From NCBI GenBank assembly GCA_945867815.1, contig CAMBIX010000007.1:1-64000 (forward strand): a DNA stretch of 64,000 nucleotides, given 5' to 3'. The notes under the pieces were generated by a model. It saw nothing but the letters and a program-made list of their open reading frames with translations, did not search any database and was not told where the DNA came from. A program made the translations under genes and the position numbers. Below, piece after piece: positions 9,738-53,203 of this stretch (position 1 is its first letter; each line of letters opens with the position of its first letter). This DNA comes from an uncultured Veillonellaceae bacterium (GTDB lineage: Bacteria; Bacillota; Negativicutes; Veillonellales; Veillonellaceae).

Positions 9738-9873
9738 AAAACGGCATACATATATCTACTAAGGGCTATATGTCAAGAAGCGTCAACCATTCCTGTAGGC
9801 GACCTGACGTAGGCTTGAGCCCTAAGGAATGCGTTGACGCTTCCGTCTTATAACACAGTATATATGCCGTTTT
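9738..9873 (-). repeat. structured 3' element, family A copy 1
   Basis: A 67-nt hairpin (9777-9843) has 11-bp outer arms GAAGCGTCAAC/GTTGACGCTTC and an inner ATTCCT/AGGAAT stem around a conserved core. It is nested inside a further 11-bp inverted repeat (9738-9748 and 9863-9873). Read on the minus strand it differs by about one base in the 67-nt unit from the copy at 41126-41192. It lies just downstream of the gerW gene in that gene's direction and ends TTTT, so it probably acts as its terminator. The rest of the gap 9472-9901 shows nothing else I can name. Confidence 0.85.
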
Positions 9874-11441: not shown

Positions 11442-11515
11442 GAAGCAGTCTATGTTTCTCGTAGGGAGCCTTTACCGAAGATAACCAGCTCCCGAGAGAA
11501 TATATAGACCGCTTC
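11442..11515 (-). repeat. structured 3' element, family B copy 1
   Basis: Outer arms begin GGAAGC and end GCTTC. The inner module, read on the minus strand, contains TTCTCTCGGGAGCTGG, then CTTCGGT, then GGCTCC and ACGAGAA. It lies just past the stop of the M23 peptidase gene in that gene's direction. A further small inverted repeat (AGGAGGA/TCCTCCT, 11396-11427) follows. The rest of the gap 11200-11542 shows nothing I recognise. Confidence 0.8.
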
Positions 11516-11542
11516 CATACTCTGTGTATAACCGTAAAACTA

Positions 11543-36493: not shown

Positions 36494-36505
36494 TTCTAAT
36501 ATACG

Positions 36506-36572
36506 GAAGCGTCAACGTATTCCTTAAGGCTCAGTCTTGCGTCAGGTCGCCTACAGGAATAGTAGACGCTTC
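36506..36572 (+). repeat. structured 3' element, family A copy 2
   Basis: A 67-nt hairpin with arms GAAGCGTCAAC/GTAGACGCTTC and inner ATTCCT/AGGAAT. The core contains GTCAGGTCGCCTACAGGAAT, identical to that in the other two A copies. It starts 13 nt after the permease stop, in the gene's direction. Confidence 0.88.
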
Positions 36573-36592
36573 TTGATTTAGAGCTAAAATGA

Positions 36593-39144: not shown

Positions 39145-39174
39145 TTAGATAAAATTTGGATAAACCAGAGTATG

Positions 39175-39246
39175 GAAGCACTCTGTATCTTCTCTCGAGA
39201 GCTGGTTCCCTTCGGTGAAGGCTCTCTGCGAGAAGAACAGAGCGCT
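39175..39246 (+). repeat. structured 3' element, family B copy 2
   Basis: Outer arms AAGCACTCTGT/ACAGAGCGCTT enclose the family B module CTTCTCTCGAGAGCTGG, CTTCGGTGAAGGCTC and GCGAGAAG. It starts 30 nt past the DXS-like gene in the same direction. The gap 39145-39728 also holds a long hairpin (39426-39472) and the fumC promoter. Confidence 0.85.
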
Positions 39247-39425
39247 TTGTGATTTAGTGCTAAGACTGTAAGAACGTAGATTTAATAATTCTGTTCTTCG
39301 TTGTATTTCACAAGTTACCTTGAGAAACACGATGCGTTATAAAGAGATGGAAGATATTTTTTGACGTTAATCAGCAAGAAATATAAAAGTGCTTCCTGTT
39401 TTAGAATCGTATATAATTTGCTTTT

Positions 39426-39472
39426 GAACACTAGTCTTCGATAAAAATGTATTTTATCGAAGACTAGTGTTC
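39426..39472 (+). terminator. perfect 21-bp hairpin, probable terminator
   Basis: Two 21-nt arms, beginning GAACACTAGTCTTCGATAAA, are perfectly complementary around a 5-nt loop. They are followed by ATTTGTTTTT on the plus strand. It separates the DXS-like transcript from the fumC promoter. Confidence 0.8.
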
Positions 39473-39577
39473 ATTTGTTTTTAAGAAAAGTCCTGCATCT
39501 TGATTTATAATTAGTATAAAATATTTATAAAATAATAATAAATTTCAATAAAATCGTAATTTAATTATTGAAAACTA

Positions 39578-41087: not shown

Positions 41088-41244
41088 TATAGCATAGTGT
41101 GAATGAGCACAACGTGCTAGGTATGGAAGCGTCAACGCATTCCTTAGGGCTCAGGCCTACGTCAGGTCGCCTACAGGAATGGTTGACGCTTCTTTACTTA
41201 TAGATATAAGTTTTGGGTGAATTGCTCATTCACATTATGCTATA
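41088..41244 (+). repeat. structured 3' element, family A copy 3, nested in a 22-bp inverted repeat
   Basis: The 67-nt family A hairpin (41126-41192) is enclosed by 22-nt arms. These are TATAGCATAGTGTGAATGAG... at 41088-41109 and its complement at 41223-41244, with one wobble. It starts 3 nt after the fumC stop. Confidence 0.88.
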
Positions 41245-41450
41245 GGGATGGGAGAGAAAAGGATGATGTGATTTAGGTGCTAGAGGGTTGACACTTCTTT
41301 ATTTATAGCGATAGGTTTTGTGTACATTGCTCATTCATCTTGTGCTATAAGTGTGAGAAGGAGAATAGAGAGGCTATTTAGGTGCTTAAGGGTAGACGTT
41401 TTTTTATATAGATAGAGGATTAGCATTATATAGTTAGAGAGAAAAGAGGG
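41182..41450. repeat. degenerate 105-bp tandem repeat
   Basis: Units begin GTTGACGCTTC (41182), GTTGACACTTC (41287) and GTAGACG (41392), an exact 105-nt period. They share TTGCTCATTCA, TGCTATA and ATTTAGGTGCT in register. Unit 2 is moderately and unit 3 strongly decayed. The first unit is the 3' arm and flank of the family A element. No ORF is present. The rest of the gap to 41563 shows only the leader of the next gene. Confidence 0.8.
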
Positions 41451-45454: not shown

Positions 45455-47032
45455 ATGGCAAAACAATTAAAAAATAAGATAGTAGTTACTTTGTTAACCG
45501 GTGTGTTTTTAGGTGTGTTTGGTTCATATGCTTTCGTAGGTGCTGAAGGGATAAGTCAGCCTTTATTGGAACAAAGTAAAGTGGATGGATTAGGAGAAGC
45601 TAATAAAGGATTTATTACAAAATCAAAGCAAGTAAAAAGTGAAACTGACGTTTTAGGCAGTAAAAATATAGCGGATAATTATGAAAATCCTCTTGAAAAA
45701 GAGGTAGGTTATTTAGTTAAGACAAATCCAGATACACCCTTTAAAGCCGTAGCCAATCCAGCTTATGATGAAACAAAGTATGTTGAATTGCCTTATACTA
45801 TCGTTGATGATAATAGCCGGCAGCTTATATATTCAGATAGTCCTGAGTATGTAACTAAGGATGGTGTGATTGCTGGTGGTACAATTGGTAGAACCGCTTC
45901 ATTACAGCACATAGTAGCGGAGAATACGAATGTATTAACTGACATTAATAAAAAAGCCTTGAGAGGAGCTACGGTCAATACAGCTATTAATGAATTAGTA
46001 AAAAAAGAGCTTCAAAAGGCAGATAAAAAAGAGAAGGATAATACAAGTAAAGATATTTCATTTCAGCAGACGGTGGATAGAAATAGTCTAGATATAAAAA
46101 ATAAAAAGCAGCAAAATGATTTGCCTGTCACTGAATCAAAGGGCCTAGTAAATGTTTATTATTATCATGTAAATAGTATGAATCGGCTGAAGAAAATAGT
46201 TATTTTTGGAGAAAATACAACAAATACAGTGAAAACAGGGCTTTTAGAAAAAGTGGTGACTGTGCCAGCTACGCCGGCCTATTTTACGCTAGGTCGAGGA
46301 TTAGCAGTAAAATTATTGGAACCGAATACTCCTATTAATCAATCGTTTAGTATAGCTCCGTATAATAAGCAAGTAATTTATGAAAGTCAGGAAGCGATTG
46401 CACCAGAAGCACTTACCTCAGGTATAGCCTATATTAAGACGGAGATACCATTGGCTATACGAGTTGCTATGATTGACGCAGATGCTAAAGCGGATGAGGT
46501 TATACAGGATTTACCAGTAATACCAGAAGATGAGCATGCTTTGCGAGGCTTATTTCCAGCCGCTCTTCGTCAAATTAATGTAAAAACTGTTTATAACAGT
46601 GATATTGGCAGTGCCTATGTGGCATTGGCTAATAACACAAGTGATCCATTTGAAATGGGTATTGATGAGTTAGAACAAAATAAAAAGACCGTTGATTTTG
46701 GTAATTATGGTGTCATGTATCAAACGCATATACATACGCAGGGGCAAGAGCCATTTAATTTGTATGTAAATCCTCGTGGTGGTGCCTATGCAGGTGGTTT
46801 TAAAGTAAAGGCAGTAAGGACCAATCAAGAGGGACAAAAAATAGTAACGAGTGAAAAAATCTATGAAGTACCTACAGGTGATTTACCTTATATAGGAAAT
46901 GGAACGAGTAAAGAAGCCTGGTTCTTAGGTACCTATGCAGGAGGAAGCGATATAACCATTACTTGGATGCCAGCTGGCGCTTCTAATTTACCTATTCGAT
47001 TTGTGTTGGTACCTAAAGGCATGAATAAGTAA
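45455..47032 (+). CDS. secreted protein of unknown function
   Basis: A 525-residue protein with a clear signal peptide (KNKIVVTLLTGVFLGVFG, cleavage likely near residue 31). The region around residues 180-225 is Lys/Asn-rich and of low complexity. The C-terminal ~140 residues are more conserved-looking, with YNSDIGSAYVALANNTSD, FGNYGVMYQTHIHTQG, LYVNPRGGAYAGGFKV and MPAGASNLPIRFVLVPKG. I have a weak recollection of similar tails in secreted copper-amine-oxidase-N-type proteins of Firmicutes. No enzymatic motif is visible. It sits alone in an accessory region. Confidence 0.6.
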   Translation: MAKQLKNKIVVTLLTGVFLGVFGSYAFVGAEGISQPLLEQSKVDGLGEANKGFITKSKQVKSETDVLGSKNIADNYENPLEKEVGYLVKTNPDTPFKAVANPAYDETKYVELPYTIVDDNSRQLIYSDSPEYVTKDGVIAGGTIGRTASLQHIVAENTNVLTDINKKALRGATVNTAINELVKKELQKADKKEKDNTSKDISFQQTVDRNSLDIKNKKQQNDLPVTESKGLVNVYYYHVNSMNRLKKIVIFGENTTNTVKTGLLEKVVTVPATPAYFTLGRGLAVKLLEPNTPINQSFSIAPYNKQVIYESQEAIAPEALTSGIAYIKTEIPLAIRVAMIDADAKADEVIQDLPVIPEDEHALRGLFPAALRQINVKTVYNSDIGSAYVALANNTSDPFEMGIDELEQNKKTVDFGNYGVMYQTHIHTQGQEPFNLYVNPRGGAYAGGFKVKAVRTNQEGQKIVTSEKIYEVPTGDLPYIGNGTSKEAWFLGTYAGGSDITITWMPAGASNLPIRFVLVPKGMNK

Positions 47033-47085
47033 CATGATTTATTTTTACTGAATTAGAAAAATATGAATAAATTTTAATAAATAAA

Positions 47086-47136
47086 TCTTGAATTGTGTCA
47101 TATATCACTAAAAAGTATAAGAAATAGAATTATTAT
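47086..47136 (+). promoter_or_regulatory. 23-nt motif promoter, site 1 (ncRNA)
   Basis: The 23-nt motif (47086-47108) reads TCTTGAATTG, then TGTC, then ATATATCAC. A -10 box TATTAT (47131-47136) begins 23 nt after the motif starts its downstream gap, with no clear -35. The motif core is centred near -42, the position of class II CRP/FNR-type activators. Confidence 0.7.
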
Positions 47137-47142
47137 ATATAT

Positions 47143-47504
47143 ATAGGAAGGATAAGGAACGATAAAAGAATTCGTAGACTCCTATTTATAGAATCAGCTG
47201 CCCGATGAAGTGCTGAGACAGATCTGATTAATACATTCATTTTCGATGAGGATACTCACAATTCGTGGGGGAGTACCAATTTTACATTAGTTTAGGGCTT
47301 TTGTAGAGAGTACTTTTTTCCTCATCGGAAGATAGACGCCTTATGCTTCCCTTAGTACCAAGATAGGCTGTATCCTAGCTCAGGTAGTATACAGTGGAAG
47401 CAAGGATTATAGCTCACTTGAAGAAGGCTCTTGGCCTTAGGTGATACCCATGTATAAATGAATACTAAACATGGAAAAAGGAGCCCCTTTAAGGGGCTCC
47501 TTTT
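47143..47504 (+). ncRNA. candidate structured non-coding RNA, about 360 nt
   Basis: No supported ORF exists here, yet the region is rich in local stems between a promoter and a terminator. Stems are ATAGGA/TCCTAT (47143/47180) with inner ACGA/TCGT, AATCAG/CTGATT (47192/47224), CGATGAGG/CCTCATCG (47244/47320) enclosing TACTCAC/GTG..GAGTA, TGCTTCC/GGAAGCA (47344/47396) enclosing CTGTAT/ATACAG, AAGGC/GCCTT (47424/47434), and the terminator stem. It lacks the conserved segments of RNase P RNA, tmRNA, SRP RNA or a cobalamin riboswitch as I know them. No gene follows on the plus strand, so a stand-alone RNA is more likely than a leader. Confidence 0.6.
47475..47504 (+). terminator. intrinsic terminator of the candidate ncRNA
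   Basis: AAAAAGGAGCCCC, TTTAA loop and GGGGCTCCTTTT form a perfect GC-rich stem with flanking A/T runs. Confidence 0.93.
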
Positions 47505-47602: not shown

Positions 47603-47670
47603 AAAAAGCCCTCTTTCTCGCAAGGAGCCTTCACCGAAGGTGATCAGCTCCGAGAGAGATTGGGCTTTTT
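47603..47670 (-). terminator. structured 3' element, family B copy 3, ending the AmiS/UreI transcript
   Basis: On the minus strand AAAAAGCCC, the family B module (CTCTCTCGGAGCTG, CACCTTCGGTGAAGGCTCC, GCGAGAA) and GGGCTTTTT form a long hairpin ending in a T-run, about 95 nt past the AmiS/UreI stop. Confidence 0.88.
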
Positions 47671-48309: not shown

Positions 48310-48600
48310 AGTAATTCCTTCTTTCAAGGAAAGATATGCACTATATAGGATGACTTCACGTCCGGTTATATACATCTGTCTATTACATAAAAAATAATTA
48401 GGAAATCAATTATTTTATCTAATTACAGTACTAGTATAGCAACAATCAAGTGCATAATCAACATATATTTGATTTAAAATAGTGATAAAAATAAGGCGTA
48501 GTTTGATTAGTATTAACTATTTAAGATAAGTCATTTACTTGTAAATCAAATAAAATTACTGGAATTTAAAAGAGCTCATTTTATAGCGGATAAAATAAAA

Positions 48601-48651
48601 TCTTGAATTGCGTAATATATCACATAAATAAATATAAATTATTAGTATTAT
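48601..48651 (+). promoter_or_regulatory. 23-nt motif promoter, site 2 (radical SAM gene)
   Basis: The motif (48601-48623) reads TCTTGAATTG, CGTA, ATATATCAC, and TATTAT (48646-48651) is 22 nt downstream, the same geometry as sites 1 and 3. The leader to the radical SAM gene is about 340 nt and AT-rich. Confidence 0.7.
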
Positions 48652-48752
48652 ATGTATTAGGTAAAAAAGGTGTAAATGGGGATTTAAGAACTTGCTTTTT
48701 TTACTGCATTTAAGGGGTTCTATCTTACTTTTTACTTAGGAGAATAGATAAT

Positions 48753-48794: not shown

Positions 48795-48996
48795 ATAAAA
48801 ATATTATAAGTAAAACCCCTTGCATTTCTAATCACAAAGTATTAATATTTCTTTAGTGAGGCATTAATAACCTAGCAATTACCTATTTATTAAGAGGTAA
48901 TACATATTATCAATTTTATTTATTTTATTTGGATTTATACAGCTAGGTATTAGTGATGACTCTTTATTCACATCATTATTACTAGAGGTGACAACA

Positions 48997-50409
48997 ATGG
49001 GATTGGATTTAAAACACAAAGCAGGTCGTTTGGCATTTGAAACGGCATTAAAAGCAGCGTATTCACAAGTTGGTAAAGACCGTATCAAAACGGTTAGCCG
49101 CATGTTCCATTTGATGGATCAGTTTAAAGAAACTAACAAAGATGCTGATAATGCTACATTAGAAGCTATCATGGAACCAGATAGTGCCTTAGGGAAATTC
49201 GTTGACAAAGTTATCGCTGAAGTTGACCCTGGCATTGTTATTCGTGCCCTATTGAACTTTGGTTACGAATCTATGACGTATGGCTGGGAAAAATCCCAGA
49301 AGAATGTTGAAAAATATCATTGCAACATTCCTTTTGGTATCTTGATTGACCCAACAACAGCTTGTAACTTGCGTTGCACAGGCTGCTGGGCTGCTGAATA
49401 TGGTAATGCTTTAAGTCTTTCTTATGATGAAATCGATTCTGTTATTACACAGGGGAAAGAATTAGGTACTTATACTTACCTATTCACTGGTGGTGAACCA
49501 TTAACTCGTAAAGCAGATATCATTAAATTGGCAGAAAAACATTATGATTGCTCCTTTATCGTATTCACTAATGGTACATTAGTTGATGAAAAATTCTGCG
49601 AAGACTTATTACGTGTTAAGAACGTATATCCAGCATTGAGCTTGGAAGGTTATGAAGAAAAGAACGACCAGCGTCGTGGCCAGGGCGTATTTGAAAAAGT
49701 TATGCACGCTATGGACTTAATGCGTGAACATAAATTGTTGTTCGGTAACTCCATTTGCTACACAAGTGCTAACATGGAAGTTGTTACATCCGATAAGTTT
49801 ATTGACATGATTTTGGAAAAAGGTTCCAAGTTCGGTATGTACTTCCACTATATGCCAGTTGGTACAGATGCGGCTGTTGAATTGTTGCCTACAAAAGAAC
49901 AACGTGAATACATGTTACACCGCATTCACCAAGTTCGTGACCCTAAAGATGGCAAAGGCTTCTTCTGCTTTGACTTCCAGAATGATGGCGAATTAGTTAA
50001 CGGTTGTATTGCTGGTGGTCGTCGTTACTTCCACATTAATGCAAACGGCGATGCAGAACCATGCGTATTTATTCACTACTCCAACATGAATATTCGTGAA
50101 CATTCCATCTTGGAAATTTTACAGTCTCCAATCTTCATGGAATACTATCGCAATCAGCCGTTCAACAAGAACTTGTTGAAACCATGTCCTATGTTGGAAA
50201 ACCCAGAAATTTTACCTCAGATGGTAAAACGTGCGGGTGCTAAATCCACTGACTTACAGTCTCCAGAAACAGCAGAACAGTTATGTGCTAAATGCGTACA
50301 ATACGCTAAAAACTGGGCTCCAGAAGCGGAAGAATTAAATACGGTTAAGGCAGATATGACTCGTAAAGAAGAAATTAACCGTGAATATCAAGCACAACAA
50401 GCTAAATAA
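48997..50409 (+). CDS. radical SAM/SPASM domain protein
   Basis: The cluster motif CNLRCTGCW (CX3CX2C, residues ~122-130) and FTGGEPL identify a radical SAM enzyme. A C-terminal SPASM-like region has cysteines in NGCIAGG, AEPCVF, LKPCPML and LCAKCVQY for auxiliary clusters. An N-terminal helical extension of about 110 residues precedes the barrel. The substrate is unknown, and no RiPP precursor gene or partner is adjacent. GAGGTGACAACA precedes ATG 48997, and the upstream GTG 48988 overlaps that site. A long motif-driven leader precedes it. Confidence 0.88.
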   Translation: MGLDLKHKAGRLAFETALKAAYSQVGKDRIKTVSRMFHLMDQFKETNKDADNATLEAIMEPDSALGKFVDKVIAEVDPGIVIRALLNFGYESMTYGWEKSQKNVEKYHCNIPFGILIDPTTACNLRCTGCWAAEYGNALSLSYDEIDSVITQGKELGTYTYLFTGGEPLTRKADIIKLAEKHYDCSFIVFTNGTLVDEKFCEDLLRVKNVYPALSLEGYEEKNDQRRGQGVFEKVMHAMDLMREHKLLFGNSICYTSANMEVVTSDKFIDMILEKGSKFGMYFHYMPVGTDAAVELLPTKEQREYMLHRIHQVRDPKDGKGFFCFDFQNDGELVNGCIAGGRRYFHINANGDAEPCVFIHYSNMNIREHSILEILQSPIFMEYYRNQPFNKNLLKPCPMLENPEILPQMVKRAGAKSTDLQSPETAEQLCAKCVQYAKNWAPEAEELNTVKADMTRKEEINREYQAQQAK

Positions 50410-51952: not shown

Positions 51953-51997
51953 ATTATATCAATTATAACATAATTATGAACGAATAAATAAAAAATA

Positions 51998-52047
51998 TCT
52001 TGATTTGTATCATATATCACTATAATTAGCTATAGATATCATATAAT
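51998..52047 (+). promoter_or_regulatory. 23-nt motif promoter, site 3 (agmatine cluster)
   Basis: The motif (51998-52020) reads TCTTGATTTG, TATC, ATATATCAC, and TATAAT (52042-52047) begins 22 nt after it. The core is centred near -41.5 from the predicted start. The transcript would begin about 50 nt before the leader ORF at 52104. Confidence 0.75.
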
Positions 52048-52103
52048 AAAATAAAGAGGGCGAGATTCATTGGAAGATACTTCTGGTAAGGGAGGTCTTG
52101 GTT

Positions 52104-52184
52104 ATGAGTAAGCAAATACAGGTATATATGGCAAGGCAGGTTAGCACAATAGTAAACAAATTCCTATTGATTGGGTTTGTTTAG
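52104..52184 (+). CDS. leader peptide ORF, 26 codons, overlapping a terminator
   Basis: ATG 52104 is preceded by GGGAGGTCTTGGTT, a strong ribosome binding site. The product starts MSKQIQVYMARQVSTIVNK and ends GFV. Its last 14 codons run through the intrinsic terminator at 52143-52200, and the stop (52182-52184) is inside the 3' arm. A ribosome reaching or pausing at the end would prevent the hairpin, so this looks like a regulatory leader peptide. It shares VYxA and TIxNK with the leader at 60437. Confidence 0.6.
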   Translation: MSKQIQVYMARQVSTIVNKFLLIGFV

Positions 52185-52200
52185 TATTGTGCTTTTTTTA
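52143..52200 (+). terminator. intrinsic terminator/attenuator of the agmatine cluster leader
   Basis: AGCACAATAGTAAACAAA and TTTGTTTAGTATTGTGCT form an 18-bp stem with one mismatch around a 15-nt loop, followed by seven T. It lies upstream of the decarboxylase remnant and inside the leader ORF. The stretch 52201-52345 shows no gene. Confidence 0.9.
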
Positions 52201-52345
52201 TAGTTACTTGTAGTGGCTAGGTCATATGTGAGGCTTAGGTATTTAACTAGACATAATCGTAGGGAGAAAGAAAGTGGTGACTTATAGAAAATGCTGGAGT
52301 CGGTCGTTAGTTTGTAGTCGAATGGTTACTTTTTAAAAAGTATAA

Positions 52346-53203
52346 GCCTTAGGAGGCGTATTCGTATGGCAGCCACGTAAGGTATCAATTAATGGGGAAT
52401 GGAAAGATTTATTGGACGCTACAGATAAGGAATTAGACCATATGCAAAAGGCTTGGATTTTAAACAATGAAGATACATGGCATGGTTTTAGTCATATCGA
52501 AGATGACTACGTTATGCTTGATCCAATTAAGATTACGATTCAGACACCTGGCCTTAAGGGTGATGGAACCTATAAGAAGGAAGGCATTCCAGCAGCTATT
52601 GTAACAGACTACTTGATAAAACAAGGGGTTGTTGTAGAAAAGACAGATACGTATTCCTTCTTATTGTTACATTCCTTTGGTACGACAGAAGGTAAACACG
52701 GTGACTTATTAGCAGGGCTCTTAGCCTTTAAGAGAGATTATGATAATAATACCTTGCTTATGGAACTCTTCCTTGATGTTGTTAAGAATAATCCTCGCTT
52801 TGAAGGTAAGGGATTATATGATTTGTGCCATGAAATGAACGAATTTTATAAAAAGACGGATTTCTTACACACCATGCAGGATGCTTTTGATATTTTGCCG
52901 AAACAAGTTATGACACCAGCTGAAGCCTATGAAAAAGTTGTACATCGGGATATAGAATATGTCTACTTAGATGATATGATGGGTCGTATACCAGCGGTTA
53001 TGGTTGTACCTTATCCTCCAGGAATTCCTGTTATTATGGGTGGTGAAAAGTTAGATAAAGAAGCACAGCCTATTTTTAAGTACTTGCAATTATTGCAGAC
53101 CTATGAAAATACCTTTAAAGGTTATGAAAAGGATATCCATGGGGTAGAACGCGATGTTGTAGATGGGAAAATTAAGTATAAGACCTATTGTATTAAGAAA
53201 TAA
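52346..53203 (+). pseudogene. Orn/Lys/Arg decarboxylase, C-terminal remnant
   Basis: The frame encodes the end of a biodegradative PLP decarboxylase: FVWQPRKVSINGEW, NNEDTWHGFSHIEDDYVMLDPIK (in part), GIPAAIVTDYLIKQGVVVEKTDTYSF and SFGTTEGKHGDLLAGL. The whole PLP domain, including the catalytic Lys region (about 450 residues), is absent, so it cannot decarboxylate. The frame has no ATG. AGGAGGCGTATTCGT precedes ATG 52366, but that ATG is out of frame and stops after four codons. Either the 5' end was lost and frameshifted, or a non-standard start (TTG 52412) is used for a 263-residue product. Context suggests it was an arginine or ornithine decarboxylase. Confidence 0.8.

Follow-up and report, generated by a model that had tools for sequence, protein, structure and literature searches.

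The window analysed here is the stretch of DNA from position 1 to 64000 of contig 7 of a 1.97-Mb Veillonellaceae genome, which is the sole member of its genus in the collection that we searched, where the family is represented by 28 genomes. The candidate RNA sits in a 731-bp gap, ~19 kb away from dnaA (27637), between a gene for a 525-aa protein without a Pfam domain (45455–47032) and an AmiS/UreI-type channel gene that reaches 47764 and is convergent with it. The features given below for the candidate and for the units that share its promoter lie on the plus strand. Positions 47143–47504 had been described in the original prediction as a gene-free stretch with no plus-strand gene after it, and both statements hold: no ORF of at least 40 aa is present in the interval, and the next plus-strand gene starts at 48988 and is preceded by a separate copy of the promoter block described below, with no plus-strand gene between the candidate and that copy. 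The longest plus-strand reading frame in the interval is 24 aa and lacks a ribosome site, no credible ribosome sites were found for its short frames, and none of its three plus-strand frames, with stops read as X, has a Pfam match. In the absence of a convincing ORF, we treat the interval as a predicted untranslated RNA of ~362 nt.

Comparison of the window’s intergenic regions with one another by BLAST revealed a promoter block of ~70 bp (47079–47147) that is common to two other units. Copy 2 (48593–48661) lies ahead of a radical-SAM/SPASM gene (48988–50409) and copy 3 (51972–52025) ahead of a cluster that starts with a decarboxylase fragment, and both were also recovered by a scan for the core of the block. 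The candidate’s block is 80.6% identical to copy 2 over 72 bp (E 6e-9), and positions 47059–47113 are 80% identical to copy 3 over 56 bp. The block includes a conserved 23-bp core, TCTTGAATTGTGTCATATATCAC (47086–47108), with a CRP/FNR-like palindrome that points to a putative regulator of this type. Across the 1.97-Mb genome, the pattern of the common core, TCTTGAWTTGYRTMATATATCAC, matches at exactly three places with up to three mismatches allowed, all within 5 kb. Since the pattern was derived from these three copies, it is the BLAST result and the lack of any additional copy that carry the weight. The reversed pattern, used as a control, has no match in the genome, and the 27 other genomes of the family contain just scattered three-mismatch matches. 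A −10-like hexamer, which in the candidate’s block is TATTAT (47131–47136), starts 22–23 nt past the core in all three copies, and this fixed position puts the likely transcription start at ~47143, in agreement with the original prediction. In class II CRP/FNR promoters, the activator site is centred near −41.5. Each of the three copies has a TGTG-N6-TCAC-like palindrome near this distance from its likely start. That of the candidate, TGTGT-N6-TCACT (47094–47109), is centred at about −41.5 and its position fits the class II consensus TGTGA-N6-TCACA, with a right half, TCAC, that is invariant in the three copies and a left half that is degenerate (TGTGT, TGCGT and TGTAT). A scan of proteins encoded in the window and in nearby stretches turned up no CRP/FNR-type gene. 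These sequence comparisons amount to strong promoter evidence that the block is real and common to all three units, and bear out both the ‘own promoter signature’ that had been proposed and its occurrence at amine and radical SAM genes.

The third unit encodes an arginine-decarboxylase-type C-terminal fragment, a basic amino acid/polyamine (arginine/ornithine-type) antiporter, agmatine deiminase, N-carbamoylputrescine amidase and a phosphatidylserine-decarboxylase-family protein. At 52412–53203, just the C-terminal third of the arginine/lysine-type decarboxylase is left, and the agmatine cluster behind it is otherwise intact. All relatives of the radical-SAM/SPASM protein that were found in the genome collection are from Clostridia (46–60% identity), which suggests that its gene was likely gained horizontally. 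The agmatine genes and the adjacent AmiS/UreI gene, together with a urease-UreI-AmtB cluster on contig 3 of the same genome, suggest an ammonia/acid theme.

At its 3′ end, the candidate carries a terminator-like hairpin (47476–47504) that was found by an inverted-repeat search. The ‘near-perfect terminator’ of the original prediction stands as far as the hairpin is concerned, which is a perfect 14-bp stem, but not for the U tract, which is short and symmetrical, and a consensus terminator scan scored no terminator at the candidate. The U run comprises four U that are also paired with an A run inside the stem, and with this symmetry the hairpin may end transcripts of either strand. That the interval forms a transcription unit of its own, regulated and untranslated, is a well-supported prediction.

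The predicted folding energy of 47143–47504 is −112.3 kcal/mol, compared with −88.8 kcal/mol in shuffles (z −4.3; z −3.8 in a repeat shuffle test of the whole interval). Most of this above-shuffle stability is due to a 95-nt hairpin, together with the terminator and a long-range stem of 12 bp, and without the terminator the z falls to −2.3. The strongest structural signal is the 95-nt hairpin (47239–47333), which is long and branched, is closed by TTTCGATGAGGA and TCCTCATCGGAA, and has a z of −6.3, with 0 of 300 shuffles equally stable. The 5′ domain (47143–47352; z −3.1) is predicted to be closed by the long-range stem (47146–47350), in which GGAAGGATAAGG (47146–47157) pairs with CCTTATGCTTCC (47339–47350). 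The 3′ domain (47350–47475) is ordinary relative to shuffles (z −0.6), and its elements are predictions only: a helix between 47367–47376 and 47403–47413 with which a smaller hairpin, CTGTAT/ATACAG, competes (47366–47413), a hairpin of the form TCACTT..AAGGC..GCCTT..AGGTGA (47414–47444) and a hairpin CCATGT/ACATGG (47448–47474). As the 95-nt hairpin and the 5′ domain beat shuffles and the 3′ domain does not, the predicted 5′ stems are probably real whereas those of the 3′ domain are unproven, so that the ‘at least six strong local stems’ of the original prediction reduce to this hairpin and the 5′ domain. When scored in 120-nt windows, the candidate is not exceptional, with several of the window’s other intergenic regions equalling or beating its fold z, and the intergenic regions of this genome are hairpin-rich.

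Set beside the promoter copies and their spacing, the lack of an ORF, the better-than-chance 5′ fold and the terminator-like hairpin, the reading that we favour is that 47143–47504 is a stand-alone untranslated RNA gene, specifying an sRNA of ~360 nt from an activator-dependent promoter and ending at an intrinsic terminator; we put its probability at roughly one half. The main rival comes from the other two units, which would be transcribed with long leaders: copies 2 and 3 are followed by ~340 nt and ~350 nt ahead of the first ORF, and the third unit’s leader includes a strong terminator hairpin at 52143–52193, found as an inverted repeat (52055–52205; z −3.2). The candidate could accordingly be a terminated (attenuated) 5′ leader that has outlived, together with its promoter, the regulated gene that it once preceded; the RNA would then be functionless or a decaying riboregulator. 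The neighbourhood is a decaying one, with the truncated decarboxylase and a nearby sulfatase-type gene that is split in two. However, no trace of a plus-strand gene follows the terminator, the next feature being the convergent UreI gene, and the long-range stem and main hairpin are intact, leaving a lost-gene leader as a serious but unlikely explanation. The leader of the third unit also contains a possible 26-aa frame with a ribosome site, which runs into the terminator upstream of the truncated decarboxylase, and 52055–52205 is by its sequence a possible leader-peptide attenuator or decayed gene.

Decay could also have gone further, such that the candidate would be a pseudogene of a regulated gene, its folds arising by chance in addition to the terminator. 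The state of the neighbourhood, a 3′ third that is structured no more than chance and the several equally structured intergenic regions of the genome are in line with this view, but the lack of any Pfam trace in the plus-strand frames, the stability of the main hairpin and a z of about −4 for the whole argue against it, and we consider a pseudogene improbable.

Searches for relatives of the candidate were consistently negative. The original prediction had proposed an Rfam scan and had itself found no likeness to RNase P RNA, tmRNA, SRP RNA, 6S RNA or common riboswitches, and the results agree: the scan returned no match at the gathering threshold and none that was credible at E≤10, and a search of the candidate for a tmRNA, with its tRNA-like domain and tag reading frame, found none. 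Blastn detected no homologue in 379 other Negativicutes genomes, nor did two covariance models (R1 for the 3′ half, R2 for the 5′ half) in 60 other Veillonellales, the 27 other genomes of the family included, and plasmid, phage and viral-contig collections had none either; as each covariance model was built from one sequence, distant homologues may be missed. The best weak blastn matches in the family and class were short and mostly coding, including two pstA-like genes, and were taken as chance. Synteny through the 525-aa protein was set aside, its homologues being located elsewhere, and a structured region after one of these (G013) contains a PyrR leader and is no homologue of the candidate; a genome-collection scan with this protein gave no relative, and the loci of the clostridial radical-SAM relatives hold no copy of the candidate. 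Without a homologue in the searched genomes, the RNA itself shows no sign of selection.

That the candidate belongs, in diverged form, to a known class (6S, RNase P, tmRNA, SRP RNA, a riboswitch or the Veillonella potE and ilvD motifs) is very improbable on these results, even though its size and location are compatible with some of these. The 5′ domain resembles 6S RNA (RF00013) in its closing stem, internal loop region and long terminal hairpin, but its loop is very asymmetric and it has no cmscan match. We rejected this assignment, as the 6S model did not match and the genome’s true 6S RNA lies on another contig (C6:64143–64317; 72.9 bits). The potE (WRC-18-1) and ilvD motifs are cis elements that are widespread in Veillonella, and potE is tied there to polyamine/ornithine transport genes (PMC8632094). 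Like the candidate, the potE motif is an RNA candidate with a polyamine-gene link in the same family (PMC8632094), but it lies upstream of potE as a cis element whereas the candidate stands alone, setting them apart by description and position, and it is spread through Veillonella whereas the candidate’s models match nothing in the other family genomes.

Directly downstream of the candidate, at 47605–47670, is a copy of a dispersed intergenic hairpin repeat of ~80 nt with the core AGCTGRTYMYCTTCGGTRAAGGCTC, which occurs in 21 copies in this genome, including two others in the window (11443–11524 and 39166–39248), and is absent from the 27 other family genomes. The stem of this repeat has 61 cells changed on both sides, compared with 24.6 in shuffles, and its covariation score of 0.308, compared with 0.187, was reached by 0 of 500 shuffles, which do not keep the relatedness of the copies. 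Sliding the partner strand by 1–3 columns lowered the score to 0.13–0.20, and there is strong evidence that the stem is held by compensatory changes. The repeat matches no Rfam family, and a search of the genome for a Y1 (REP-type) transposase (PF01797) gave none. A second hairpin family (9765–9846, 36503–36589 and 41122–41209; copies 85–96% identical) has GGAAGC...GCTTC ends in common with the ~80-nt repeat and differs in its inner part. Adjoining a hairpin repeat is a G-rich intergenic, tandem-like duplication at 41181–41410 (~105-bp period, 75.6% identical), while a very stable long hairpin (39425–39473; z −8.5 in 120-nt windows) lies between DXS-type and fumarase genes, and a short tandem repeat, CTAAGTT, occupies positions 1–62 at the start of the window. 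For the candidate, the downstream copy bears on a cis action that we regard as remote, in which read-through of a weak terminator would yield antisense to the 3′ end of the AmiS/UreI gene: the convergent arrangement, the symmetrical terminator with its short U tract and the fit of UreI to the acid/ammonia theme would suit it, but this second terminator-like element lies between the two and no overlap is predicted.

Judging from its sequence features, the candidate is most likely an sRNA gene that is specific to its lineage and controlled by an activator. Bacteria have intergenic genes for trans-acting sRNAs that are under CRP/FNR-type control, and the candidate is like them in its activator-type promoter, lack of an ORF, terminator-like hairpin and catabolic co-regulation; it differs in being longer (~360 nt), lacking a homologue or target, and being known from sequence alone. 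We infer its transcription, the identity of the regulator, the condition and the mode of action as follows. An activator-dependent promoter of class II type would drive the RNA, whose transcription would finish at the intrinsic terminator. The activator, probably a protein of the CRP/FNR type, would turn on the radical-SAM gene and the agmatine-deiminase cluster as well. With one shared regulator, the RNA would accumulate under the condition that induces those genes, which may be amine/arginine supply, acid or ammonia balance. The weakly paired segment 47158–47239 and the long hairpin would most likely be the parts through which it acts in trans, on mRNAs or on a protein. In a crude scan for pairing with 46 start regions, the best z was −3.05, and no target stood clearly beyond the expectation for 46 tests. 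The more far-reaching proposal, that the candidate represents a class of structured regulatory RNA that is new and confined to its lineage, under joint control with amine/ammonia metabolism and with a 5′ domain that would be a functional binding or sensing structure, is a model that we hold to be improbable.

An open-literature search found no sRNA mapping in Negativicutes. At present, the candidate is a further plausible orphan sRNA. Should it be transcribed, Negativicutes would gain a regulated orphan RNA that offers the hypothesis of one activator acting at three promoters with an amine/ammonia theme.
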